The notes below the pieces were generated by a model. It was not told the DNA's origin. It saw only the letters and a list, made by a program, of their open reading frames with translations, and did no database searches. This document shows, one piece after another, positions 3,337-63,910 of a stretch of DNA of 64,000 nucleotides. Each line of letters starts with the position of its first letter. Position 1 is the stretch's first letter. The translations under genes were made by a program, and so were the position numbers. The stretch spans positions 1-64,000 of the forward strand of contig JAMAHW010000011.1 of assembly GCA_023627715.1 (NCBI GenBank), given 5' to 3'. The stretch is from Periconia sp. R9002 (Eukaryota; Ascomycota; Dothideomycetes; Pleosporales; Periconiaceae).

Positions 3337-4199
3337 ATTGTATTCTGCGTAGTAGAGGAGAAAGACTCGTGCAGCAAGGGAAAAGCTGAAAGCCTTCCAA
3401 GGGAAAAAAAAATCAGAGGTGAGGGTATGGAGGAAGCTGCCCTAGGTGAGGGCGGGAACATAGCCGGACATCCACATGTACAGCAGATAGCTAGCAAGTA
3501 CTATACCAATACACATCCATCCATCCATCACACTGCTAAAACATTGCTTCCCACTCTAGGTCGAACATTTCTATAATTCTTTAGATTTGACTTTGAACAT
3601 CAAAAAAACGAAGATATTTAGCAGTTTATGAACCCACTCTTGCAATTTTACAATCTCCTGCTTCTGGTAACGCGAGAGATGTTGGGATGAAGGCACTTCA
3701 CTCGCGCGAGACCACCGTAACTACGGCTATGCAAAGATACCGCAGCAAAAGAGACTTCCTGCGCTAATTTATAATAGAATCACTCGTCTACGACTGAAAC
3801 GGCAAGAATTCAACCCCCGGATCCCATAGACAGGATCGCGGAGTGATAACTATCCGCCCGGTGTTTGCGGATTTTGTCGGTACTTGGTCTTGGTAGACGA
3901 GATGGAAGGCTACTAGCCGATTGTTGCAACAATATTTATTGGGGATGCACAATGATTGGTCGACCAGTCTACAATGTATTTTACTTGTTTCGCATTTTAA
4001 GAGATCCATCATTGATGCATTCCTAACGTAGGTAAGCAGGACACCTGAGACTCTTAACGCCGTCCCACCATCCTAACGCCGACAGTGCTCCGTTTTTGCA
4101 GTTCAAGATCATTATTTATGGCAGTACGAATCTTCATAGATTCAGTTAGATAGATTTGGTCAACACTTCAAGTTTTATATTGCTAGAATAATTTTCAAA
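3337..4199. other. Intergenic, no gene recognised
   Basis: This is the P450 3' flank and the SDR promoter. It contains a short CATC/CCAT tract near 3506-3527. No open frame here has a recognisable domain or usable splice sites. Confidence 0.6.
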
Positions 4200-5218
4200 A
4201 TGAGTGCCGGACGTTTGTTTGTGACTGGCGGTTCGGGATATGTTGGCGGAGTTCTCATTGAATTTGCCGTCTCTGATGGATATGAGGTATGTATCATGTC
4301 AATACTATACTCACTTACAACATTTTGTAATAAGCTAATCTTTGACGAAATGCGTAGGTTCACGCCCTTTCCAGGAGTGAGGATAGCGACGCAAAATTGC
4401 GCAAAATGGGTGCCAAACCCGTCCGCGGGGACCTCACGTCCCTTGATACCATCCGCAACGAGAGCAAAAGTGCAGACGCCGTGGTCAATCTAGCTACCGC
4501 CTACGTATTTAATCAGGGAAAATACGAGGACGCACTACCCATCGACAACGCTGCCATCGACGCCATGTGTGATGGCCTCGTCAACACCAATAAACCTCTC
4601 ATCACAATTTCAGGAACTTTATGCGTTCAGGCGGATTCCAAGGGCAACGAGACAGATGAAACTGCACCTCCGGAACCTAGCCCTGTCAATGTGCGTATCC
4701 AAGCAGAGAACCACGCTCTCGCCCAGGCCAAGGAACGAGGTGTTCGTGTCATTGCTGTTCGGATGGCACCCTTCATTTACGGTCGCGGTGGCAGTGGCAT
4801 ATCTCTCTTCATGGGTATGGCAAAGAATATGGGTGGTTTACCTGCCGTAAATGGTGGCACAAATAGAACCAGTACTGTGCACGTTGACGACGCCGTACGC
4901 CTGTTGCTATTGGCCCTCCTGGAAGGCGAAACAGGGGAAATCTTCAATGCTACTTCACAAACAGACATCACCATGAAGGACCTCTTTCATGCCATTAACT
5001 CGGCTGTCGGTGTCGCCGATAAGGATATTTCTTACGACGAGGCACTTGCTGGCTTTGGAGAGACGATTGCATTCTTTCTGAGCGCGGAGAACAGGGCTTC
5101 TGCGGCGAAAGCGCAGAAGAAACTGGGTTGGCAACCGAAGGCTGTATCTATTCTTGATGACATCAATTCTGGGTCTTATGTACCCGTAGCTAATTCCCTT
5201 GTCGGGAAGGATGCTTAA
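4200..5218 (+). CDS. NAD(P)-dependent epimerase/dehydratase, atypical extended SDR
   Basis: Two exons (4200-4286, 4358-5218; 71-nt intron) give 315 aa. The N-terminus carries the extended-SDR dinucleotide motif GGSGYVG (residues 10-16) in a Rossmann beta-alpha-beta fold, followed by acidic and basic positions suited to cofactor binding. Further family landmarks are the NLAT segment, VRMAPFIYGRGGSG, HVDDAVRLLLLAL and GEIFNA. I do not see the classical YxxxK catalytic pair in its usual place; the corresponding stretch reads VRIQAENHAL. It therefore resembles the atypical SDRs whose catalytic tyrosine is lost, and dehydrogenase activity should not be assumed. It lies between a P450 and an NmrA-like gene, all on +. 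The substrate is unknown. Confidence 0.9.
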
Positions 5219-5934: not shown

Positions 5935-6972
5935 ATGTCTAATTGCATACAAAACGTCGCTATCATCGGAGTAAGTTCACGCAAGTTTTAGCGACAAAAT
6001 CAATAGAGTTTGACAAAGTCACAGGCTGGAGGCCACATCGGTAGGCACGTCACACAAGAGCTATTAAAAACCGGGAAACACACTATAACGGCAATCTCGC
6101 GTCCATCCAGCACCAGCAGTTTCCTGGAAGGCGTAAAAGTAGTTCGTGTCGATTATACAAGCGAAGATGACACAGATTTGGTGCAAGCACTTTTGGGACA
6201 ACAAGCTCTCATCATCAGTCTTTCAGTTGCAGCTCGAGGCGGTGCAGTTAATATCATTCGCGCAGCCGCCAAAGCTAAAGTCCAGTTCCTCTTTCCGAAC
6301 TGGTTCGGACACGATGCCGAAAATGACTCACTGTGCCAGGACAGTCTCGTAGCTGGGATGCGCGACGAGATTTGCAATGAGATCAAGTCACTTGGAGTGA
6401 GCTCTTACTTCCTGTTAGGTTGTGGTTTTTGGTATGAGTGGAGTCTTTCTGGTGGACCTGATCGCTACGGCTTCGACTTCAAGGAAAGGAAGTTGGTACT
6501 TTTCGATGGTGGGGAGGTTTACATCAACACGAGCACTTGGCCCCAGTGCGGTAGGGCGATTGCAGCTCTCTTGAGTCTCAAAGTTTCCCCTGATGGAGAT
6601 AAAGATGACTCGGTAACGCTGGCCCAATTCCGCAACCGTTCTATCTATATATCTAGCTTCAGGGTGACCCAGCGCGATATTTTCGAGAGTGTGAAACGCG
6701 TCACACGTACGAATGATGAAGATTGGGATATCACGCAAGAATCTGCGAAGAAGCGCTGGGAAGAGGCGAACGAGGAAATTCAGAAGGGGAATTATGCGGT
6801 TTTCACGAAGCTGATGTATAGTCGCATGTGGTTCCCATCGGGAGATGGAGATCATGAGACGACTCGCGGGTTGCACAATGATCTTCTTGGCTTGCCCAAA
6901 GAGGACTTGGATGAGTTTACATCGATTGCAATTAGGATGGCTGAGAATAGTGAAGTTCCGTTTTCGCATTGA
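5935..6972 (+). CDS. NmrA-like / isoflavone-reductase-like NAD(P)-binding protein
   Basis: A 36-nt first exon (5935-5970) and a second exon (6025-6972) splice over a 54-nt intron into 327 aa. The intron sits inside the glycine-rich loop, so only the spliced product restores the N-terminal NAD(P) motif, which then reads VAIIGAGGHIGRHV. The body, with TAISRPSS, VDYTS, LIISL and FLFPNWFGHD, is typical of fungal NmrA-like and isoflavone-reductase-like atypical SDRs. Members of this family are either reductases of secondary metabolites or NAD(P)-sensing regulators, and sequence alone does not separate them. The C-terminal half with WFPSGDGDHE and NDLLGLP is common in fungal homologues. It is the third oxidoreductase-type gene in a row on +. 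Confidence 0.9.
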
Positions 6973-16894: not shown

Positions 16895-19800
16895 TTACCT
16901 CGGACGACCATTCATTCCTCCCGCCAACGCACTCGCCTGCAGCTTGAAACTTCTTAAGCTTCCGCCTCCAGGCCCCGTCGCCGCCATCGCTGCGTTTATA
17001 GAACTCCTCGACCTCGCGTGCGTGTTCATGTCGGGACTTTCCACAGGAGAGTGCTGCAGCTGCATGGAGCGGATCCGTTCATTCAATTCATGAGACGCAG
17101 CCGCAACACCTGATACACTCCGTGGCGGGGACGGAGGAAATGCGGTTGAAGGAGAAGGCGAAGAAGCATTCGTAGATGATCTAGACCGCGTGTTCATCTT
17201 CGTCATGAGTGCGGTTATAGCGGCCACCGGGGATTGTGGCTGGCTCTGGTGGGAGTGCGTGGACGATAGTGAAGTGTTACGGCCGTGTAGCGATGTTTTT
17301 ACGGACGAAGAACGACTTAATGGAGGCGTGGGTAAGCCGTTGTTGAGCGGGGCGTAGTTTTCCGGGATGGAACCGTAAGTTTGCATCAACTGGTTTAGAT
17401 CGACGGACTGTGGGATTTTGCTGAGACGACGAATTGCACGTTTGTTGGTGTCAATGAATGCGGACATTGCTTTGAGGGCTGCGTTTTGAGTATGCTGTTC
17501 GTATGTAGACGCACCGGTGGATGATGTGTCGACGGCTCGGGCGGCGTGGTGAGCGGTGAGATCGAGAGTTTGTGTAGAAGAGGGTGAAGGTGCGTTCTTG
17601 AGGTTCTTTTCGATTTCGGCGATGACCTGGTCAAATTCAACGCCCTCTTTTGACTGCTTGGAAGGATGCGAAAAGATAGCAGAAGTGATTGTAGCATTGC
17701 GGGTCAGGGTGAAGAAAGACCCATCCTTTATCTTACGTCTGAGGATATTCCAGCGTGCTCGCGCCGGATTGCGTTCAATCTCTGGTTGGAAGATTGAATA
17801 CCGGCCGATTTTGGAGTAGAAGGCCTCGAGGCGATTGGCCATACGCTCCAGAACCGACATGAGGAAGGTCGACAGAGCAGCGACACGTTCGGTTTCGGAT
17901 TCAGCTTCCAGGTCCATGATGGAGTCAAATGCGTCCATCCCAGCGCATGCTTCCGCGCGAATAGATTCAAGAAATTCCATATCCCATCTCACCGAACGTT
18001 GCGCATAAGCGATGATACCTTTCTCGTGGTGCCGGGCAGACTCGCTGTTGCAAGTGAATTGCCCGATCTGGGAAACTTCCTTGGAAGATGCAACAGCATC
18101 CGCGGACCCTTTGGCCCGCGCGATGATACCGAGCACATCAGATAGTTTAGTGGGTCCAGGAGAAGAAGATGCGTTGGCCAGGGTGAACGAAATCTTCAAG
18201 ACTAGTTCTTGTAGTTTTGAACCGAAGAGGGCCGAGAATCCTCCTTGGAGAAGGCGAGATTGATAATGATAGAAGCGACGAACGCCCCCCATATTGAACA
18301 GGTCGCCTTGAAACCAGACCAGAGATGATTCCATAATCATGCCAACTTCAAAGTGCGATGCTACAACCTGTTCCGTCGCGATACGAAGGTAGCTCTTCCA
18401 CAGATCGTAGAGCATACCAATTTCCTCTGAGTGATATGATTTTTTCTGGGTCAGCTCACCAATGTAGTATTTGGTGAGCAGCGATGAGACTTCCGGATTG
18501 TTCGTGTGAGCAAGCAGATCGAAAGACTTGGAACAGTCAACACCGCCGTTGGATTTTATGATGTTGGTTCCCCCAGGGTGCATGGAGCAAAAATCAGTAA
18601 CGTCGTACACTTTCCCGTGGACACCTATCCAAACACGAGAATCGGGTTGATGTCCCGTATGCATTGCCAGTTGGGAGAGCGATACTGTCGGCTGATTGCA
18701 TGGCAATGGCTTCGGCGTCATGAACACGTCGAGCATAAACCGCCTCTCCGCAAATGCTGTGCTGAGGATCGTTTCCGCAGTCTCCATCGTCGGAGATCTG
18801 TATTTATATAAGGCTTTGCGAATACCAGACATGACAGAATCAAAAACACCGACAGATCCGCAAACATACAAATACCCGCCGATTCCACCCTGTTTCTTGG
18901 ACATGACGAGATCACATATTGACTGTCCCTGTTCGACGATGAGGGCATCGATGTAGCGGGGTTCGATATCCTTCCTGACAATGTCTCTGGAAAATGGATC
19001 GTATACAAACCCTCTCGAATCTCGAGAGAAGGCAGTATGTACTTCCAAAAGACCTTCATTAAGATATTGACGGAGTTCTTTCTCGTAGCAGAATTTGTCC
19101 TGTGACTGCACACCAAGGTAGAGTGAAGTTTTACCCCAAGCGCGACCGCAGCGGGCTTGCCAAAAACTGCGGAAAGGAGCGATTCCACTGCCTCCCGCAA
19201 ATAAAGCGACCGGCGCGGAATCATCGAATGGCAGTTGGAAGTTGAATGGGCGGGAGACCCCAATCAATATGTCTTCATCATCTGCAAGAACATCCATTTC
19301 ATCACAAACAGGTGGGTTTAGAAATCCGCTGCTGACTCCATGGCGCATAATCTTTTGATCATGGGCAAACGTTGAACAAAGCTGATACTCAGATCGGGAG
19401 ACGGTCAAGTCAACAGTGGAGGGTAGGAGCTCATCCGTATAGTTTGATATCGAATATGTTCGAGGAACCTCTATTGGGACGAGATCTGCGAGCCATGGAA
19501 CATTTCCAGAAAGGTCAAAAGCCTGGTCCCAGACTTTTGGAGGGGTATCTGAGACAGCTGCTTGCAATAAATCCCCCAGTGAGGCACGCACCGGCCATTC
19601 GTTTGTAGCGAGTACTTGCAGGACAATGTTCGATGATGCCCTGAGCAACGTGTGAAGCTTAGTAGCCAGATCTTTGGTTATGGGAGCAAGGTGTCCCCTC
19701 CTCAATATGTCAATAACTTTTAGTTGCGGCCGAGCAGCACGGGTAACGGATCCGATGTGGTCGGCATATCTCGACCATGACTTGTCTAAATTGACCGGAT

Positions 19801-21885
19801 CTTCCAGCATTGTGTCCAGCCCTAATGCTGCAGCCACTTTCGCGCACTCTGTCCAGCTGTTCATGGGCATGACAGCAAGGCGATCTCCAGGCTGGAAAGT
19901 GATCCCGGAGTTCTGAATATCCAAAGTCACCATCGCAATGGTACGGTCCGGGTCTGAATCGACGTAATTTCTGCCAAGAATCCGGCCTTGATATCGACAC
20001 TCTTCGTATGTACCGCGCATCTGATTAGGTTCGATATCGTTGTTACCACGAAATGGTTCTAACCGCTCCTTCATCGCCTCGGAAAATTGCTTGTGCGTCT
20101 CTTCCCACGGTCGGAGTCCATCAGCTGCGCCTGAAGCCCCGTTCGTTTCCGTACGTCCCGTTTTGGCTGCGCATTCAAGAAGCTGCACCAACGTCAGTTG
20201 GAAATTATGAGAGAATGGGATCTAGAGGTACTCACACCGAAAACCTTGTATCGATGGGCACCCATGAATCCTCGTTCCCCTGTATAAGCCTCGACTACTC
20301 CTTCCATGACGCCCATCAACCTGGGGTCACCCGAAGCTTTGACATACTCTGGGACACTATAGTGATATTCTATGGCCGCAATGAATGCTCGAAGATTGGA
20401 GGGTAACCATGCGCGCAAGTGCACGCCTTCAGCCCCAAGAAAAGAATCGTATTTCTTGCGGCCCAAAAAGGCGTCCATGACAAGATAGCTAGATTCGTTA
20501 GTTTCATAGCTCGGGTGAATAAGTGTATGATCTTACGGGGGGAACTGAAGCCCTGATGTTGCGGGACAACGCTTTGAGAGTGGCGCAGAGAACTTGGCCC
20601 AGCGGACCCATTCAGCAGGCGAGACGTAGTTTTCTCCAGAGCGGTTGTTTGGCGATATGCTATTGAATGCTGTGGGCATCCGTTCCAAGATCTCTTTAAG
20701 GCGAACTAATTCGCGCAGTAGCTTCTCATTGTTTCTTTGCATAACAGCCTCTTGGCATGCAGCGATAGCATCGGGCCCATGTTGGAAACTGGCCGATGTA
20801 TCAGCGCATCCTTTGAGGAAAGCAGTTTCGGCGCTGTCGCCGAACATTCCCCATCTCAAACGCTACTGATGATTAGTGCATGCTCATTCAGGCAGAATAC
20901 GAGAGGGCTTACAGTATTCTCAAAGCGGCCGACATAAGGGAACGTAGACTGTGGATCAATGTAGTCGACATTGTACGATGACTGGTCGAAGAAGGTGAGG
21001 TGAGGAATAGACCTTCCCATCCTTATACATATTTGGACGTAGGGCAATCCAATACTCCGAGGGATGTTCTTTACCTCATCTCCCAAGCCATCACTCATTG
21101 GCACGCCCTGTAGCTTGAGTGATCTAGTGGTGACATTGATTCCCTCATTGCCGTCATGCCTTTCTTCATAACGATATATTGAGCAAAGCATCCCTAGAGC
21201 TACAAGGGCAGCCCATAGAGCCTTATCAGGGATGACATCAGCAGTTCCCTCGATCAAAGGAAGAGCGGCAACAGATTCTCGGACGCGTCCGCGAGCGACA
21301 CAACCCGGCATCCTTTCACACAGATCCATCCATACTCGACCAGGAGAATTGCGGAGGGCGCCTGGTGCCTCGCCAGTGTCCGGTGGCTGGAATCCATATT
21401 CTGAGCTGAGGTAGCCATCTCTCCATCCCGTTGTCATCCCAATCTCCTCTGCTCTTAATATGACTTGTCGTGCGGGCGCCCCAAGGGCAACAGCGAGTAG
21501 ATCTCTCTCATCCACGTTCAAATTATCCAAGCTCTTCACTCCTTTGGCGTTTTGCATTTCCTGTATCTCGTACATTGATGGGATATTAGAATAGAGGAGT
21601 TCATTGATAGCTTTGCGTTCTCTAGGTTCATGTCGGTCAGATATGTTACACAGGTTACCAAGCTATGCATTAATACCTTTGACGAAGAAAGTGTTCCACG
21701 TCAGCATTGGCTGGAATCTACGGTTTGTTAGCGGTGCCGGGGACTGCAGTGAGTGAGATATAATCAGTACCCCGAAGGCAGCGTGAATGTCTCCCGGTTG
21801 GGCAAAGCCTGAGAATGTGCATCCTCGGGGTCCCAATCTGCTGCTTCTTCCACTCGAGGCTGCAGAACCTCCCGCTGGACATGAT
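16895..21885 (-). CDS. IDO-like dioxygenase fused to FAD/NADPH reductase and cytochrome b5 (5' end open)
   Basis: Exons 21885(or beyond)-21771, 21717-21677, 21622-20913, 20862-20537, 20488-20236 and 20182-16895 keep one frame for at least 1,576 codons. Residues about 1-480 form an indoleamine-2,3-dioxygenase-like heme domain; its C-terminal part (AWLPSNLRAFI, SVPEYVKASGDPRL, then GAHRYKVFG) carries the expected proximal heme histidine. From about 540 to 960 runs a P450-reductase-type FAD/NADPH module: RTYSIS flavin motif (about 722), GGSGIAPFRSFWQ (about 812) and YVCGS; the FMN flavodoxin domain is absent. A cytochrome b5 domain (about 990-1060) has HPGG and a second heme histidine in DLLAHTN. 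The last 510 residues are a helical region and a Ser/Pro-rich tail. Likely electron path: NADPH, FAD, b5, then dioxygenase heme. The first exon lacks an in-frame ATG after a TGA, so an upstream start exon is missing from this model. Substrate unknown. Confidence 0.88.
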
Positions 21886-23335
21886 CTACCGGCCCCAGTC
21901 ATGCCAGATGCCGGGCAATGGTCTAGCATATTTGTGGTTGAATTAAAAATATTCGGAAACTGGAAACAATACACTAATCAGGGACCTTCAAGGTCAAGAA
22001 AGTTGGAATTCCTTCAAGGACTAGGGAGAATGAAACGAAGATGGTGGAAACGGACACCTCAAGGACGAGAGTCTACAGCCGCATCAAGGAACAAAAGTGA
22101 AGATAGGAGGAGCCTGGGATTTTATAAGTTGCCAAGAGTTAGGTTTGACAAGACACCCAAGAGCTGAGTGGACATGTATCAAACTGACATGAGGCTCAAA
22201 CAGCACGGGATAAACGGAGCACCTATTGAGCGCATCCCCGAGGCCAACAGAATAATGGGGGTACGTACTTCTCTTGTGGCGCCCTTCCCTGTTCGAAATG
22301 CTAAACTCCAAGCAATACATAGCACAGCATCGCTATATTATACTCGAACTCGAATATATCTCAATCGTAGTGCGCGTTCAATCTAGGGGATCGTGACTGC
22401 AATGGTTGCGTAGGGATGTGTTATCCGCCTGCAATTGCTATAGGGACGGGGGTGGAGCCTCCTGTTTCAGCCATCTGACGGGTTCGCGGTAACGACCACC
22501 GCTTGACCCGCGCAAGTCGATCTTATCTTGCGAATTGTCGGAGAGAGAGCCACATACTGGTCAGTACACGGTGAATTTCGGTTGGGTAATCGTTGCCGTC
22601 AATTTTGGACATGGCATGTGTAACGTTAGATCGGAAACCTTCCATCGTCTCATCGAACCTAATCGGTCCTACCGTTCCCGCCCCGCTAGAAATGGGGTTG
22701 ATTGAGCCTGAGGTTGTAGAGGAAACCAGCAACAGCTCTCTGCAGCTTCATTTAAAGACCGATGCAGATCGTATGCACGTCTCGGGTAGTCAGGGGCTTG
22801 TTTGTACCTCAAGGTGTGGTCCTGTCTTCCTACGTTGAAGCATTGCGCAAATTGATGACAGCGCACTGCGCATTGTGAATTGCAATTGAAGCAGTTTTTT
22901 TTTGGTGATAACCGGTTTGAACATGACAAAAGAAATGATGGTTGAAGGAACTTGGGGTCTCGAGGAGGATGGAGTTGATAGGGAAGTTTGAGCACCTAAG
23001 TGTCCTGGGCGCGCGAAGTAGAACCCTAATCGTTCATACAAGAAAAAGTACCGCTTCGACTCCTCTTCCCCAGGATTCGCAATCATCTCAAATCAGCTTC
23101 GAATTGATCCGGTGTACAGAATGTTGATGGTCGAGATTCCTTTCACAACTCATGACGCAATTCCAAATCGCGGCGCATGTGCACGGCCAGTGGCGCAAGC
23201 TGCGAGCTCCCCACCAACCCAACATGGCGAAACAATGATTCCTCATCCGCGATACAACTTCACTGCAAACCTCCACAGCCTCCCAGCTTCTCCCATCAGC
23301 AAAAGCCACCTCGTGCCGTATATATATCCATCTTG
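21886..23335. other. Divergent promoter region
   Basis: About 1.4 kb between the fusion gene (-) and msrB (+). The missing first exon of the fusion gene probably lies in the left part (roughly 21890-22320), but I could not fix it. A minus frame at 22084-22320 is open but unsupported. No other gene is seen. Confidence 0.5.
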
Positions 23336-23996
23336 ATGCGCGTTCCGTCCATTGTCCGCACGCTCTACGCATTCACAAACACCACACTCCGCGCTACCAC
23401 CCCCGCCTTCAACGTTTCCCGCCTCTACAACATCCCGCAGCGCGCAACCGTATACCGATCTATGCCTTTGCCCTTCATCGGCGCCCTTTTCGGAACATCA
23501 AACAAAATGGCAGACTCCACAAACTACCCTGTTCAGAAGACAGAGGGCGAGTGGCAAGCCCAGCTGAGTCCCGGTATGTCGTCTCCATACAGCGCCGTGT
23601 AAAGATCCATCATCACTAACTCGTTTATTTCTTACAGAGCAATTCCGTATCCTCCGTAAAAAGGGTACCGAAATGGCCGGCTCCGGCCAGTACGACAAGC
23701 ACTACCCGGATGCCGGCGTCTACAAATGCACCGGATGCGACGCCCCTCTATACAAAGCTTCGCACAAGTTCGACTCAGGCTGCGGGTGGCCCGCTTTTTG
23801 GGACGCATACCCGGGTGCTGTCGGCCAAAGGGATGATTCATCGCTGGGCATGAGGAGGACAGAAATTGTCTGCAACAACTGCGGAGGGCACCTGGGTCAC
23901 ATTTTCAAGGGGGAGAGATTTGGCAACCCTAAAGACGAAAGGCACTGTGTCAACAGTGTGTCCATCAACTTTTCCCCGGAAGAGAAGAAGGAATGA
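23336..23996 (+). CDS. msrB: Peptide methionine (R)-S-oxide reductase MsrB
   Basis: Exons 23336-23573 and 23638-23996 (64-nt intron) give 198 aa. The enzyme reduces the R epimer of methionine sulfoxide in proteins, using thioredoxin. The C-terminal SelR domain (about residues 70-195) has the two structural zinc pairs, CTGC and CNNC, the WPAFWDAY block, GHLGHIF, and the catalytic cysteine in RHCVNSVSINF. The first 45 residues are basic, Ser/Thr-rich and lack acids, as in a mitochondrial presequence. Two in-frame ATGs (MPLPF at about 23463 and MADST at about 23508) would give a cytosolic form, so dual localisation is possible. A thioredoxin-like gene lies 0.9 kb downstream on the same strand. 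Confidence 0.95.
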
Positions 23997-55910: not shown

Positions 55911-58900
55911 CTAATCGTCGCTGTCCCACCCATCGTCATCATCCCCTAGTAGTGCAGGATACTGTCTATTCCGCAGATCCTGCTCCAAGCCACCCTCGCT
56001 CTCAGGATCTACGTAGCCGCGGCCACCGAAGAAAGAGAGTAGGACGGGGAGGAGAATTAATGCGTGGGTGGAGGCCCAGACCACGAGTGCAAGCCAGATG
56101 CGGAAGTAGTAGATTTCAAAAATCTGTGGACACCAGTTAGTTGTGTTTTCATGATACAGCAAAAGGGAAATATAGAAACGTACCTTGCTACGCGTCCATG
56201 CTAGCACGCCAACACCTAGGATTTTTGTGATTGTGATACCGCTAACGACAGAACCTGCAACGTTGACCATGGCTGTCCATGAGCGAGCATCGAGCCCCTT
56301 GAACTTGTGGCGCGGAGCACGTTCCATAGTCGCCCGACTGGGAAAGGTGAAAGCTCGTGCAATGTGTGCCGTGAATTCGACACTGATGCCCACGCAGATG
56401 ATCAGGTTGACTAGGGATACGGCGTTAAGGGATACACCAAGCAGTGCCATAGACCCAATGATCGCAGACACAGTCATGGCAACTACAAGTGTGACGACTA
56501 GCGCCGTCGAAAATGAACCGAGTAGAATAGTTGTGACAACAAATGTGGCAGCGAGTGCAGAACCGATGAGTGTGCCAGCGAGCCGAACAATGGAGAGATA
56601 TTGATCAAAAAATATGTAGTGTTTGGAGTAGGGGAAGACTTCTGCTTCCACATCCTTCTCAATCTCTTTGGCAATCCGGCGCGCTGCCGTGTAAGAAGCG
56701 ATGAGATCCTCCTGTGAGTGGAGAGGAGTGTGCGAAGTACGGAAGTGCGAGGCTGGGATCGTGAGTTTCTCGTCGTCAATGACGAGGGCGTTGGAGTAAC
56801 CAGCGGCGCCACCGAGAGGACAGTCCTCTGTTGTTGGTGCTTGAATCCAGCGGTCTAGGTATGATATAAATTCTTGGCCTTCAGGCATCCCGCTCAGGGT
56901 CATGTTCCATGGCGGACTACGGCCCTCAAAGCATGGTTTCCCATCCTCCCCGACGCAGCACTTGGAGTTCTCAGGGTTGAGCCATAGGATGAAGTCATCT
57001 AACCAGTTGGCTGCCGAAGCTGCAAGGAAAGAAACTTCAGGCCGCTTGCGTTCCGCCTCGATAATGTTCGCAAGACTTTCCTGATGGCACGTAGAAAAGC
57101 GGCCACAAATCTCCTTTTGTGCTGTACGTTGTGTCACGTTCAATTCTTTGGTAACAAAGTACACAGGCGGGCCTGCATCGAAGTAATCGTACAGATCGTT
57201 GAAGTATGGGATGAGGTAAGAGCCAGTGGGTACGGCATTACGTTGGTCCAAGCCAAGCTGCACTTTTGGAAAGAGCGCCAGAGCAGCGGTGAATATGCCG
57301 AAGAAAACAACCAAGATCGAAACCTTGGCCTTCTTTCCCAACAGAGCCGGGGCGTATGTCTTGCGGATGAATTTTTGTAGGCCACCTTCCTCCCCAGCGC
57401 CATGGCCCATGCCGCCATTGAGGTAGCTCTCATCAGCTCTTCGTACACGGAAGAACGGAAAGCAATCGGCACGGTTGCTTTCTACACGTTGCTGATTCAA
57501 AGCAAGGACGGCGATAAACATCGTCACCTGAAGAACGGCGTTGATGAAAACAGCTCCCGCAGCATATGCAGCAAAGTTACGTACTGCGGGCATACCAACA
57601 GCACATCCCAGAGCGAAAGCAGTCGTCTCGGTAGCAGCAGATAGCAGGATTGAAGGGCCCATGCGACCCAGTGCTCGCGAAGCGCGCTCAGGAATGGAGC
57701 CTTCGGGGTGGCTGATGTTGACGCGCTCGAATTCGTGAACAATCAGAAAGATGTTGTCCACCCCGACAGCTAGAACGAGGAAAGGAATGACTTCGGCAAT
57801 AATCAGAGTCACCTTGATGCCTGCCGCAGAAAACAGACCAACAGATGCTGATACAGACATCAAAACGATAAGAATTCCGGAGATGCCGAGCATAAACTTT
57901 GATTGAACTAGCGCGTTGGACGGGTTGTGAAGGATAGAACGGACGGTAAGGGTGGTCGAGCCGAGTGCGAGAGAGGCGTACAGGAACATTATGATGTAGC
58001 TCACGACCACAATTTTCGCATCCGTGTTTGTGCTCTTGTTCAGTTCTTGTTCCAGACTGACTTCCGTACTGAAGCTAAGTCGCAGGCCCCGATCACGGGC
58101 TTCGCCTTGCACTGCAATCATCAAATCCTTTATGCTATCTTCCCAGTCCATTGCACGCTCGAGTTCGGGAGTGCCTTCTGCATAGTTGGTAACAACCCAC
58201 GTCGCAATGATCGCTTGGGCATCGAGAACACTCTCGTTGACGCCGCCAAAGAGAAGGTGAGGATCGAGAGGCTGCTGAAACGGCGGTAAACAAGAGGACG
58301 GGTTGTCGACGCAAGCTGCCAAGTCTTCTTGCCAGTACGATGGTGACACACCTTCAAAGTCGCCCCCAAAGTAGCCAGTTACGGATTGAACGACACAGGC
58401 ATCTCCAATGGGCTTGAAGCAAATCTTGTCCAGTGTGTACCCGCCCTGATAAGATTTTGAACGTTGGATGCGGCCTTCAACGTCGAACCACCACCGGAGG
58501 GTATCATAACTGAGTACGGGACCACCTGTATCGTTTACTAAAAAGGCTTGTTCAGCACGGAAAAAGGGGCCAAAGTTTTGATCGAAATAGGCCTTTTCCA
58601 GGGCGGCAGCGGAGTCCGGTGACACCCATAGTCGTACAGGATCGGTCTCGACTTGGAATCGCAGCCATCCCAGACTGAGGAGGACCACAACAAGAAAACT
58701 GGTCGCAATGGTGATGAGGGGGAACCTGGCACACACGTATCCAAGTCGGCTAAACATACGGTCGCACCAGGTGTTGACAAAATATTGCCGCGTGGGTCGG
58801 TCCAGCATACCAACATTGTGGACAATATCTCCTTCGTCCTCGTCGTCACTAGGCTCGATATCTTGTAGCAGTCGCAGACGCTCGTTCTTTTGGCTTGTGT

Positions 58901-59882
58901 GCTTTTGATAAGCCACGTGACCTGCAACTGCAATGCAGAGTAAAGCGAGTGCAAAGGAATAGATGATGATGACGGCAAATGACAAACAAGGAAGGAGGCC
59001 GACATAGCATTGCTTGGCTTCGGTAACCTCCGGGAGCTCAGCACAGGAGGAGCCACAATCCAGACACGCGCAACGGTATTTTTCATCTGTTGAATTGCAA
59101 GGATGGGCTTCTTTATCCATGGGCTCCATGGCGGGAAACTCGGACGCGTTCGGACGAGGAAAGTTCATCTGGAAAGGACTACCGAGGAACTTTTTGTCGC
59201 CCAAGAATTTGAGGAACTGAGTGTAGTTGGATGCGCCACCTCCGATGAAATCCATGGCCTTCCCGTTGGTTGCGCCAAACTTGACATCCTTACAGCTGTT
59301 GAAGAATTCGGCACCGTACTTGTTGGACACGAGATGGTCCAATTCGGTGACGAGGTATTTGTCTCCTTTGGGTTCGGTTTGGGTGACATTGATGAAGAGA
59401 GACTGATTAGGGGAGCAAGTGAATGTGCAGAAGAGATTGAAGAAGTTCTCCTTGCACGCCGGGCAGGCGTTGATGATGGGGGTGGCTCGGTCGAGGTTCG
59501 TCTTCAGTGCGTCAAGCTGTTCTTCCTTGCAGCACACGGGCGTGTCGGACCAGCTATCACCGCAGATGTCGACCAGCTTCTTTCTAACATCATCTTCGGG
59601 CTTCTCGGCCAGCCCGTTGTCGGGGCATGGCAGTTCGGAGCCAAAGAAACTTTGTTTCCCGCATTGCCCTCGTATCGCGCAACGGCCCTCCTCATGCTTC
59701 ACAGTCCAGTCAGGGCCAGCGGCGGCGACAGAAACGGCCGACATCAACAACAGACCGGCTGTTGCGTAGTTTCTCCTCCAGCCCATCCGGCTCCTTTCTC
59801 CCAAGTACCCTCCCGCCATGCTGGTGTTGCCTAGTCGCGCCACCGGGGCGCCGAACGAGTCGTCGGAATCGTAATCTGACAA
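55911..59882 (-). CDS. NCR1: Niemann-Pick type C1 sterol transporter (NCR1 orthologue)
   Basis: Exons 59882-56184 and 56123-55911 give 1,303 aa; the 60-nt intron (56124-56183) is a multiple of three, so the unspliced frame stays open. NPC1 moves sterols out of the lumen of the vacuole/lysosome. Visible parts are the N-terminal cysteine-rich sterol-binding domain with CPACKENFFNLFCTFTC; a span then a luminal domain; the sterol-sensing domain (AEVIPFLVLAVGVDNIFL); a second luminal cysteine-rich region (CPLGG, CHQE); and a C-terminal group of five spans with GVSLNAVSLVNLIICVGISVEF. The chosen start adds about 32 polar residues before the hydrophobic signal segment. An in-frame ATG at 59786 (MGWRRNYATAG) would place the signal peptide at the N-terminus and is the more likely start. 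Confidence 0.95.
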   Translation of the reverse strand: MSDYDSDDSFGAPVARLGNTSMAGGYLGERSRMGWRRNYATAGLLLMSAVSVAAAGPDWTVKHEEGRCAIRGQCGKQSFFGSELPCPDNGLAEKPEDDVRKKLVDICGDSWSDTPVCCKEEQLDALKTNLDRATPIINACPACKENFFNLFCTFTCSPNQSLFINVTQTEPKGDKYLVTELDHLVSNKYGAEFFNSCKDVKFGATNGKAMDFIGGGASNYTQFLKFLGDKKFLGSPFQMNFPRPNASEFPAMEPMDKEAHPCNSTDEKYRCACLDCGSSCAELPEVTEAKQCYVGLLPCLSFAVIIIYSFALALLCIAVAGHVAYQKHTSQKNERLRLLQDIEPSDDEDEGDIVHNVGMLDRPTRQYFVNTWCDRMFSRLGYVCARFPLITIATSFLVVVLLSLGWLRFQVETDPVRLWVSPDSAAALEKAYFDQNFGPFFRAEQAFLVNDTGGPVLSYDTLRWWFDVEGRIQRSKSYQGGYTLDKICFKPIGDACVVQSVTGYFGGDFEGVSPSYWQEDLAACVDNPSSCLPPFQQPLDPHLLFGGVNESVLDAQAIIATWVVTNYAEGTPELERAMDWEDSIKDLMIAVQGEARDRGLRLSFSTEVSLEQELNKSTNTDAKIVVVSYIIMFLYASLALGSTTLTVRSILHNPSNALVQSKFMLGISGILIVLMSVSASVGLFSAAGIKVTLIIAEVIPFLVLAVGVDNIFLIVHEFERVNISHPEGSIPERASRALGRMGPSILLSAATETTAFALGCAVGMPAVRNFAAYAAGAVFINAVLQVTMFIAVLALNQQRVESNRADCFPFFRVRRADESYLNGGMGHGAGEEGGLQKFIRKTYAPALLGKKAKVSILVVFFGIFTAALALFPKVQLGLDQRNAVPTGSYLIPYFNDLYDYFDAGPPVYFVTKELNVTQRTAQKEICGRFSTCHQESLANIIEAERKRPEVSFLAASAANWLDDFILWLNPENSKCCVGEDGKPCFEGRSPPWNMTLSGMPEGQEFISYLDRWIQAPTTEDCPLGGAAGYSNALVIDDEKLTIPASHFRTSHTPLHSQEDLIASYTAARRIAKEIEKDVEAEVFPYSKHYIFFDQYLSIVRLAGTLIGSALAATFVVTTILLGSFSTALVVTLVVAMTVSAIIGSMALLGVSLNAVSLVNLIICVGISVEFTAHIARAFTFPSRATMERAPRHKFKGLDARSWTAMVNVAGSVVSGITITKILGVGVLAWTRSKVRFYISLLLYHENTTNWCPQIFEIYYFRIWLALVVWASTHALILLPVLLSFFGGRGYVDPESEGGLEQDLRNRQYPALLGDDDDGWDSDD

Positions 59883-60326
59883 AGAGGTGTCTGGGCAAGC
59901 GAGAGGGAGGTATAGATGCGTAGTTGTACGATCGAGGGTTAAGAAGTACCTAGATGGTGAGCGTGGATGTGAATGCGGACATGTGTTGCGGGTGGAGGTG
60001 ATGGGATGAAGGATGAAGTCGAGCCGGAGCTGTTTGCTCGTGTCGTCATGTTGGTGGGCCTAAGCTTCAGACGCAGGCACCCAGACTTCCTTGCCGAGGT
60101 ACACTAATTACTCTGGTCACACGCGCTTACACTCAACCGCAGTGAATTCGATCAGCTTCACATTCCTTGCCAACCTGGGCCATTCCATTTGAAAATCTAT
60201 ATACTGCCATCTTTTTGCTCATTACTTCATCGTCATCGTCATAAGCGTTTCCGCCGGGTATTCAACGTGCCGTCCTGCCGTCCTACCAACTCCCCTGCAC
60301 CATGCAACTTCCGTATCACTGCAAAC
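59883..60326. other. NPC1 promoter and KAP123 3' flank
   Basis: A 440-bp spacer between two minus-strand genes, without a gene. Confidence 0.6.
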
Positions 60327-63300
60327 CTACTTTTGCAAATACTTGACCAGCTCCACAAGCTGCGACCTCGTCTCCTCTTCCAGCTGCTCCTCGGGCTCTC
60401 CCAACACCTTCTCGAAAATTGGCATGAGCGTAGGTGTGAGCTGCTGAATCGTAGGCTCGTTGGCTTGGTCTGGAAGGCGTTAGACTTATGCACGGATAGG
60501 ATGATTCTTGGGAATACTTACAGAGCTTGATAATCATGTTGAAGATGGGCTTGTTCTCCTCGTAATCTTCTCGGAGAGGCAGAAGCTGCACCAAGCGGGG
60601 CAGGACCTCACCAATGGGGAGCTTGTCACCGTGCTTGGAGATGAACCTGCTCACGCAACCAGCAGTGTTGTCCAACAATCGAGCCTGATCTTGGGCATCT
60701 AGCAATGGCTCCAACTTGCTGAAGATCGTGGGCAGCGACTTGAGAATCTCATCATCATTAGTAGTCATCTCGCAGAGCAATCCGATGCCATAGACGGCGT
60801 TGGACTTGGTCTCTGGGTCTTCATCCGACAAGCGGTGGACAAGCAGCTTCAGAAGGTTCGTGCTGTATGGTGTGCAAGACTGGCCCATGTTGCCAATGCA
60901 CTCGGCAATGGTGCCCACGGCAGCACTCCGTTCGACAGAGTCCTGACTGCTGGCATACTTGACGATAGGCTTCTCAAAGGCTTTCCAAAGTTCGCCAAAT
61001 GCAGGCCCGAGGGCAACAGCTAGCCCATTGACAACCTCCATGGCGGTTTCAATCACCAACCAGTCGTATTCGGAAGACTCGTCAAGGACATCGTCATCAT
61101 CTTCTTCGCCGAGATCTTGTTGGCAAGGGTGGTGCTTCGTGAGAACGGCCAAGAGTTGTTGGCAAATCTATAAATCCAATATTAGTCACTGTCTGAATGG
61201 TGGTATATGCACGAAAGACTTACTTCAGGCACCGCAGTGCCGTTTTCCTGCATAAGCATCGAGGGACCGCACAGACGAAGCGTAGCCGCAACGTCGCGGT
61301 TGATATCCGTGACTGTACCCCTGTTCCAAATATCAGTAAAAATATGACAAACATATATAATAACATGGCAAGAAAAATACGAGTCTCAGAAACAGAATCG
61401 CGTTCGCTTCAACCGCACTTTGTGCGTCAGAGTGAGCTGGGATTAACGAGTAAGGTTCATCTTTGGGCATGAGGAAAAAAAAAAAGGCAAAAAGTATCAA
61501 ACTCACCGATCCATCTCATCAGGCCAGATACTCATGGTGGCCTTCATGATAAGGTCGCCCAACTGAACGATTTGTTGAGGGGGCTGAACATGGGGTGGCA
61601 GGCCGGGTGTCCACTTATCCATGCCATCCTTCTCCGCCATCTGCCAAAGGGAGGCATAGGTGCGCCAGAGCGTTCCGAGAGCAGCTTTGCGAATACCTTC
61701 GTAGCTGTGGTCGACGAGCTCGAGAAGCTTTGTGACAGTGTTCTCAAGATAGGGTAGGTATTGCTCGCGCGTGTGGGTGATGATGTCGCCAAATACTTCA
61801 GCAGCAATTTCCTTTTCCATAGCGATAGCAGAGACGCCACCAATGTCATCCCATTCATCATCATCTACGGCGGCGTCATTGAGATCGCTACCGTCGTCAT
61901 CATCATCTGTGGCAGCGGCAACCTTGATCTTGCGACCCTCGATAACCACTTCAGTACCCACGAGGTCTTTTGCCTCCTCTCCGAGCTCGACGTTCAAGTT
62001 GGATTCCTCTTGGTCCAAGCACTCGTTCAAGCCCTTGACAGCACCGGCCAGATATTTCGAAAAGCCTTCCTCATACAACTTTGCCATGGTACTCCACAGG
62101 ATGTAACTGGTTTCACGCAGTCTGGGGTGGTCTAGGTGGAGAGCCTCTTCTGAAGCCTCCATCAATGGGAGAACGTAGGGCTCAAAAGGCTCCTTGCCAA
62201 CAGCAGAAGCCATCTTGCCCATGGAATCGCAAACAGTGCCGCGGAGATCCAAGTCGTCCTGGCTTTCCTTGATACGGATGTATTGAGAAAGAGAGTTCAT
62301 GGTCTGCGCAAAGTAGGGCAAGAATGCGCCCTCAGCAGCAGAAGCGATGGAGCCAACTGCGCTAATGGCTGCGCTCTTTGTCTTGAGGTCGTCGCTGTGG
62401 AAAAGATTGCTGAATCGAGGGACCAACTCAGGTACGTACTTGGCTGCCTCCTCAGCATCGAGACCTTCGATCAAGGAATCCACGGCGTTGCAAGTACCGC
62501 GCACAATCTGCAGAGTACGCTCATCACCAGAGTTGGAGCTCACAGCAAGGTCGAAGTTTTTGATCATGGCGGGAATGAGACGGCCATGCTCCTTGCCGAC
62601 ATCCTCGGCTAGATCATCAGCCAAACGGGCCACACCGTTCAATGCAGCACCGCGAACCTTGATATCCTGATCCTCAAGGAGATGCAAAACCATGGGCAAT
62701 ATCTCGTGAAGTTGGGTTGCGATGAAGTCGGGAGCGCCCTCTACGCACATGCCGAGAGCCAAAATACCAGCCTGGCGGTAGTCGGGGTCCTGAGAGTTGA
62801 AGTAGTTTCCGAGAGCCTTCAAAAGAGGGATGACGACTTGGCTTGGGGGCAGACTGGACGCAAGAATGTCGAGGAGGCCAAGGGCAGAGCGAGCGGGAGT
62901 GACATCTTCGTCGTCGCTGGTGATGTCGCCGAGCTCGGTAACGATCTGGAGAGCTTTGAGAGTGAGCTCCTCACCGATCCTCATACCCTGGATCTTCAGC
63001 TTCTTGAAGCGGACACACTGCATCAGGAAAGCAAGCGCCTGGGACCGGTAATCATCCTCAACTGATGAAGAGGAAGCCATCTCGAGCATGAACTTGACAA
63101 GGTCTCCGAAATGCTTTTGCAAGAGGGCGGATTCGCAGGCCAGAAGAGTTTGGAAGACTTCAAATGCTTGAAGGGCATGGTTCTCATCCCCTTGCTCCAC
63201 GGTGGTCTGCAGAACCTTGACCATGCCGGGAATAGCTTCCTGGAACATGGTAACCTCATTCGGGGTCTCGTCGGGCTCAAGAAGCATGGCAAGACGGCCG

Positions 63301-63910
63301 AGAGCAAGCATGGTGTTCACCCTCACTTCAGTGCTCTCAGCATCGTTGAGCGTAGAGCTGAAGAGCTTGTAGAGATCGGCCTTGTTGCCGGGAAACTCAT
63401 CACCGACAGTTTCCAAGGTGGTCCATATAATGAATGTGCCAACCTCCCTGTGACGTGCGTTGGCGCTGGTGGCTGCTTGCTGGAGAAAACTTAGCAGCTC
63501 GGCACCCTCTCCATCCGCAAAATCGTCAGACGCAAAGGCAGAGATGACGCGTGCTGCCGAGTGACGGACAAGCGGTGCCTCCTCTGTCAGCGAGAATTCG
63601 CAGACCTGCCTCCGAAGAGCGGATTTCTGGTCAGCGGGTAGCGCATTCCAGTGTTTAGGGACGAGCTTTCTGGCTTCGACAGCTGCCAGCTGGCGAAGTT
63701 CTTGCTTGGGGTGCTTGCAGACGATCTGGAGGAGAGCATTAAGCGAGCCAGGGGATTTGTAGTAGTTGTTGTTGAGCGTCGAGGTGGCAGACTTGACGCG
63801 TTCGGTATCAGCTAGAGAGCGTTAGTTGCTATTCGCGGTCGAGACACAAGAGAAAGCCACTTACGCTGCAAGAGAGCCTCGAGCAGCTCTACAAACTGCT
63901 GCTCATCCAT
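60327..63910 (-). CDS. KAP123: Karyopherin beta Kap123 / importin-4
   Basis: Exons 63910-63865, 63811-61507, 61320-61224, 61167-60522 and 60469-60327 keep frame to 1,078 aa, close to the 1,113 of yeast Kap123. It is a nuclear import receptor; the yeast protein carries ribosomal proteins and histones. The N-terminus (MDEQQFVELLEALLQPD, then LRQLAAVEARKLVPKHW) is the importin-beta N-terminal RanGTP-binding region. The rest is tandem HEAT repeats, such as DQDIKVRGAALNGVARLADDLAEDVGKEHG, with acidic inserts near the middle and at EEDDDDVLDESSE. The first exon is 46 nt and the third 97 nt, and all donors match GTRAGT. Confidence 0.95.

Follow-up and report, generated by a model that had tools for sequence, protein, structure and literature searches.

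An indoleamine 2,3-dioxygenase-like domain, an NADPH reductase module and cytochrome b5 in one fungal chain: a proposed self-sufficient oxygenase type

P450 BM3 (CYP102) and nitric-oxide synthase (NOS) carry a thiolate-ligated heme and a flavin mononucleotide (FMN) domain, while Ncb5or and the nitrate reductase chains use a flavin adenine dinucleotide (FAD) module of the b5-reductase class. Here we describe a fungal gene that combines parts of these kinds with an indoleamine 2,3-dioxygenase (IDO)-like domain. The gene lies on the minus strand (16895..21929) of a 64,000-nucleotide stretch of Periconia sp. R9002 DNA (assembly GCA_023627715.1, contig JAMAHW010000011.1, positions 1 to 64,000), hereafter the window. 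Its predicted product joins the IDO-like domain, an FAD and reduced nicotinamide adenine dinucleotide phosphate (NADPH) reductase module of the cytochrome P450 reductase (CPR) class, and cytochrome b5. Human IDO1 is thought to require a reduced heme, and its cellular reductant is called unclear in a cited account (PMC13142367). Since this gene and at least 118 relatives keep reductase, b5 and IDO fold on the same polypeptide, the question of IDO-heme reduction becomes addressable in a single protein. We propose, on the basis of domain content and cofactor residues, that the fusion is a self-sufficient oxygenase type built on the IDO fold. No description of an IDO-reductase-b5 fusion was found among the papers listed by searches of an open-access library, a scope outside which the subscription papers of Yuasa and Ball on fungal IDO fall. 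The parts are known, the combination is undescribed as far as that literature shows, and the protein has been named in databases but, to our knowledge, not studied.

Gene structure and domain organization

The gene model splices six exons into a single open frame encoding 1591 amino acids (aa; 175 kDa), and each of its five introns is 48-55 nt long with GT..AG borders. This upholds the six exons in one frame of an initial annotation made from the window alone. That annotation began the gene at 21885; the start moves 44 nt further upstream, to the ATG at 21929-21927, from which the N-terminus is nearly the same as that of the Periconia macrospinosa homologue P0001 (91% identical, aligned over 100%). 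The stop codon is at 16897-16895. Exon 1 (21771..21929) encodes aa 1-53, with one Cys-Pro dipeptide at aa 5 and another at aa 17, and is followed by exon 2 (21677..21717). The IDO-like domain occupies exon 3 (20913..21621, its first half), exon 4 (20537..20862) and exon 5 (20236..20488, with Asp417 and the proximal His490). Intron 5 (20183..20235, 53 nt, GT..AG) marks the IDO/reductase junction and introduces an in-frame stop when retained. Exon 6 (16895..20182) encodes the final IDO helix, the reductase, b5 and the C-terminal region. All coordinates given for the gene and its parts are on the minus strand.

Homologue searching found 351 proteins. The counts below rest on the best 120 of these (P0001-P0120), which form an alignment of 121 rows with the window protein. 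All four Pfam domains occur in 118 of the 120, the exceptions being P0070, without a Cyt-b5 match, and P0073, without a NAD_binding_1 match; the domain set recurs across fungi. Domain order was read from Pfam coordinates in five full-length homologues (P0001, P0028, P0056, P0115 and P0060), and a strict motif-order test was passed by 110 of the 120, the remaining ten comprising eight motif variants and two gaps. Every motif on which the domains had been recognized is present and recurs under a strict pattern: GAHRYKV in 117 of the 120, RTYSIS in 120, GGSGIAPFR in 114, YVCGS in 119, HPGG in 119 and the second b5 His in 109. Key residues are retained in 120-121 of the 121 rows. The Pfam scores given below, each above its cutoff, and the four-domain count of 118 in 120 speak against a chance combination. 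Two adjacent genes fused by a faulty gene model were rejected on that count and on P0124, an open reading frame (ORF) both of whose ends resemble unspliced intron. It runs without a stop from IDO (42.2 bits) into FAD_binding_1 (32.5 bits, cutoff 32.3), and the continuity of IDO and FAD is therefore independent of the splicing assumed in the window.

The IDO-fold domain spans approximately aa 114-542 (20045..21482, introns included), limits transferred manually from P0124, in which the domain covers residues 61-489. Pfam places IDO (PF01231) on the exon 3 ORF at 28.2 bits (cutoff 26) and on P0001 at 42.5 bits, so an IDO-superfamily domain upstream of the reductase stands. Structure comparison finds the IDO fold over the whole domain, with an identity of just 17-20% in alignments to IDO1/2, and the matches listed by the fold search are IDO, reductase and related FAD/NADP entries. 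GAHRYKV was correctly read as the proximal-His block: alignment with the three other IDO loci of the genome makes His490 (codon 20254..20256) the proximal-His equivalent, and His is found there in 120 of 121 rows, with one gap (P0017). The alternative that the proximal His is lost, with Leu444 at the ligand place, was rejected, given that the same alignment puts Leu444 at the His303 place.

Other pocket positions were compared at places that we take to be human IDO D274, F226 and H303; Arg231 alone is named in a paper cited below. The equivalences come from low-identity alignments that are uncertain near Arg231. Asp417 (D274 place) and Phe369 (F226 place) are each conserved in 121 of 121 rows. 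Position 444 (His303 place) is L in 97 rows, W in 11, H in five, M in four and V in four. Position 374, aligned with some uncertainty to Arg231, is T in 54 rows, P in 44, L in 11, V in nine and M in three, with Arg in none; an alternative partner, Lys393, is K in 109, Q in three, R in two, F and L in one each and a gap in five. The JK-loop motif of Trp-cleaving IDOs, GTGG, occurs in none of the 121 rows across the aa 480-560 segment, in which K(T/S)GRxETNG is found in 116. In the window protein this loop reads KTGRTETNG (aa 503-511, 20138..20164), its equivalence to the JK loop being inferred from the fold range; aa 503, 505, 506, 509, 510 and 511 are identical in all 121 rows and aa 508 in 120. 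The fold and the proximal His are kept; judging from the aligned sequences, the Arg231 and GTGG features of tryptophan-cleaving IDOs are not retained in the 121 rows.

Downstream lie FAD_binding_1 with a CPR-type connecting domain (19382..19963, 43 bits, cutoff 32.3) and NAD_binding_1 (19010..19201, 33.4 bits, cutoff 22). The FAD residues Arg737, Tyr739 and Ser740, the NADPH-type pair Ser882 and Arg883, and Cys937 are each present in 121 of 121 rows. So are Asp981 and Phe983, at what we take to be the places of CPR Asp675 and Trp677. The FAD, connecting and NADPH domains of the diflavin reductases (CPR and sulfite reductase flavoprotein, SiR-FP) are all found, and by sequence and fold the module belongs to the NADPH diflavin (CPR/sulfite reductase) class, which corrects an earlier likening to cytochrome b5 reductase systems. 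The absence of an FMN domain, suggested at the outset, is borne out. Searched with Pfam, the window ORFs gave no flavodoxin match at E values up to 10, nor did P0001, P0028, P0056, P0115 and P0134 at E values up to 1, and the interval from aa 511 to aa 560 measures only 39-53 residues across the 121 rows. Nor did Pfam match a NOS oxygenase domain in the window ORFs or five homologues; the oxygenase part matches IDO.

The cytochrome b5 domain (PF00173, 18452..18673, 58.5 bits, cutoff 23.7) contains HPGG and a second heme His. Its ligands are His1031, in 120 of 121 rows with one gap (P0070), and His1055, in all 121. As measured in 50-residue blocks, conservation is 0.72-0.92 in the IDO part (aa 101-550) and 0.68-0.87 in the reductase and b5 (aa 551-1100); by this alignment measure the IDO part is about as conserved as its partners.

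Beyond b5, the AlphaFold2 model contains a conserved helical region (approximately aa 1082-1328, 17687..18427; block conservation approximately 0.62-0.81). It has no Pfam family above curated cutoff in the window ORFs or five homologues, and a genome search with it returned one match, itself. The Ser/Pro-rich C-terminal tail (16898..17686) is less conserved (blocks of 0.53-0.62 from aa 1301) and mostly low in predicted local distance difference test (pLDDT) score where modelled, the model ending at aa 1370. A C-terminal globin was rejected: Protoglobin matched one of five homologues at E 0.15, below cutoff, and no His is at least 90% conserved in aa 1075-1344. A FEZ match in the window ORFs (E 0.038) also fell below cutoff. 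At the other end of the protein (21870-21929), Cys-Pro dipeptides recur: of the 120 homologues, 81 have at least one among their first 45 residues and 72 have at least two. This dipeptide is known from heme-regulatory motifs, and from their sequence the N-terminal copies are possibly such motifs.

Distribution and origin of the fusion

Named hosts among the matches listed include members of the Dothideomycetes, Eurotiomycetes, Leotiomycetes and Sordariomycetes, and Podospora is represented. Two named basidiomycetes came up among the best 120 of 204 matches when more distant pieces served as queries. In Serendipita sp. 399 (P0259), IDO, FAD and NAD domains lie in one partial chain that ends at the reductase end, with FAD_binding_1 at 30.7, just under the cutoff of 32.3. 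In the protein of Ceratobasidium sp. 392 (P0222) the IDO part is the only one of these domains present, and it follows a SWIRM domain; this join may reflect either a faulty gene model or another kind of fusion. By these sequences both Dikarya phyla have the IDO-reductase fusion, through common descent or transfer, and so it may be old.

With the IDO part as query, 100 proteins were found. Judged by Pfam sets, lengths and seventeen inspected sequences, these appear to be fusion pieces, and no stand-alone IDO relative of the fusion clade was recognized among them. In both this search and that with distant pieces, scoring was limited to the approximately 8000 candidates with the most words in common with the query. 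On prokaryote contigs, two peptide patterns matched 225 times, and none of these matches was a relative by tblastn, a weak test. A phage-defence family was considered and set aside, as no PADLOC family was obtained for P0001. The Colletotrichum homologues P0028 and P0072 fall into two lengths (approximately 1613 and 1680-1695 aa) and two names, classes that may represent paralogues.

Predicted mechanism and alternative explanations

The sequence shows which domains and cofactor residues are present and in what order the domains stand; how electrons travel, whether heme is loaded and what the substrate is are inferences. The reading we favor, and consider rather probable, is a member of the IDO superfamily (histidine-ligated aromatic oxygenases) that acts as a self-sufficient heme oxygenase, fed through an NADPH-FAD-b5-heme chain. 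NADPH would reduce the FAD of the CPR-like module, which would pass single electrons to the b5 heme, the next center in the chain with no FMN domain between. The b5 domain would then move to the IDO-fold domain and reduce its His-ligated heme, which would take up O2 and oxidize the substrate. On this scheme the enzyme probably works with NADPH alone. As background, b5 has been proposed as an IDO reductant (PMC4191572). In vitro, CPR can support recombinant human IDO1 whether or not b5 is present, the in vivo role being called unclear (PMC13142367).

The reaction can be narrowed further, more tentatively. Canonical dioxygenation needs only one priming electron (PMC12921851), so a permanent stoichiometric reductase is not obviously required. 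The attached reductase and changed substrate site would therefore fit a monooxygenase-like reaction better than one-time priming. One source sets dioxygenation, described as electron-free after initial reduction, against an IDO monooxygenase path (PMC12921851), and reduction of compound II leading to monooxygenation has been suggested for MarE (PMC11904535). We conjecture by analogy that an indole or another aromatic compound is monooxygenated, with electrons used at each turnover. The full version of this idea is possible, though we would not bet on it: a His-heme monooxygenase of IDO fold that consumes electrons at each turnover as BM3 and NOS do, with b5 in the FMN role and a substrate outside the kynurenine route.

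Several considerations weigh against a self-sufficient oxygenase. On their own, the FAD domains of CPR and BM3 can reduce ferricyanide, but it is the FMN domain that serves cytochrome c and heme partners (PMC3509625). With the FMN domain as last carrier in these enzymes, direct FAD-to-b5 transfer is not a given, and b5 must replace FMN. PrnB, of the same superfamily, is described as giving no product with b5 or CPR (PMC11791213), and human IDO1 is reported to be less active when b5 takes the place of methylene blue (PMC4191572). The changes at the His303 and Arg231 places leave room for the IDO-fold domain to have lost its oxygenase activity, as it may have done. Heme binding, FAD-to-b5 transfer and oxygenation are all predictions from domain content.

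The best-placed alternative, which we regard as unlikely, is a sensor or electron-delivery protein whose IDO-fold heme binds O2, NO or another ligand and gates the reductase, or a flavohemoglobin-like detoxifier of NO or O2 species, in either case acting on no organic substrate. It accounts for the unkept Arg231 and His303 places and could draw on the N-terminal Cys-Pro dipeptides, of which 72 of 120 homologues have at least two among their first 45 residues. There are also precedents, in that IDO-like myoglobins have lost tryptophan activity (PMC4191572) and flavohemoglobins link a heme to an FAD domain (PMC1457004). However, the Phe at the F226 place in all 121 rows and the near-invariant KTGRTETNG loop suggest a shaped substrate pocket.

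Less likely again is a tryptophan 2,3-dioxygenase that carries its own activator, FAD and b5 serving only to hold its heme in the ferrous state, and that yields N-formylkynurenine. The IDO fold, the retained proximal His and the suggestion of b5 as an IDO reductant (PMC4191572) are in its favor. However, none of the 121 rows has GTGG in the aa 480-560 segment, or Arg in the profile-aligned, if uncertain, column of Arg231, the residue described as contacting the substrate carboxylate in human IDO (PMC12921851). The genome (42.9 Mb, 267 contigs) also contains three further IDO loci, so that the kynurenine route need not depend on the fusion gene. One of them (contig C1) has part of a kynureninase beside it (a TIGR01814 match at E 6.3e-20 and 71.4 bits, under the family cutoff of 246.4, just part of the gene having been supplied to the search). 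This N-terminal piece lies at 3441-3947 on the plus strand of locus L002. The fusion gene is thus unlikely to encode the first enzyme of the kynurenine route. Given the missing Trp-carboxylate Arg and the other IDOs, the substrate of the self-sufficient oxygenase proposed here is probably not free tryptophan on that route. Finally, it is very improbable that the working part is an NADPH-b5 reductase for other partners, with the IDO-fold domain surviving as a relic or scaffold without heme: the 17-20% structural identity to IDO1/2 would fit, as would the His303 equivalent, which 116 of 121 rows have lost, but the proximal His persists in 120 and the IDO part is among the best conserved stretches.

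Neighboring genes and comparison with known systems

A divergent methionine sulfoxide reductase B (SelR) ORF lies 1.6 kb upstream of the fusion gene (23568-23996, plus strand, E 7.8e-44), and a major facilitator superfamily (MFS) transporter ORF lies downstream. Elsewhere in the window are a cytochrome P450 ORF (2179-3336) with NAD-binding ORFs nearby (4358-5218 and 6007-6972), and a Niemann-Pick C1-like ORF (55911-60059) adjoining importin-like ORFs (60316-63821).

Database names for the family include sulfite reductase flavoprotein alpha-component, NADPH--hemoprotein reductase, putative indoleamine 2,3-dioxygenase and, for homologue P0040, related to nitric-oxide synthase. The NOS-like loci of N. 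crassa were considered as the same gene; nothing was found, in the portion of the source consulted (PMC4948021), linking them to the fusion protein. The proposed reading would correct a family misleadingly named sulfite reductase or NADPH--hemoprotein reductase. If true, it would also mean that a CPR-class FAD module feeds b5 in nature with no FMN involved, and would possibly provide a source of a self-sufficient oxygenase for biocatalysis.

The fusion resembles each of several known systems in part. With indoleamine 2,3-dioxygenase (PF01231; IDO1/IDO2 and fungal IDO alpha, beta and gamma) it shares the IDO fold and proximal His, but its Arg231 and His303 places are changed, KTGRTETNG stands for GTGG, and a reductase and b5 are attached. 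PrnB, MarE and other histidine-ligated heme-dependent aromatic oxygenases form the superfamily that includes IDO, with related folds and different reactions; the passages cited mention no fused electron supply, and the fusion is likened to them by superfamily only (PMC11791213, PMC11904535). NADPH-cytochrome P450 reductase and the sulfite reductase flavoprotein have the same FAD and NADPH module and connecting domain, whereas the fusion lacks the FMN domain and runs on into b5 past the C-terminal aromatic residue. Ncb5or and the nitrate reductase chains likewise have an FAD module feeding a b5 heme, but the FAD module of the fusion is of the CPR class and an IDO domain is added. Like P450 BM3 and nitric-oxide synthase, the fusion places an oxygenase and a diflavin-family NADPH reductase in one chain, and its FAD module matches theirs by fold; it differs from both in its predicted histidine-ligated heme and in having b5 where they have the FMN domain.

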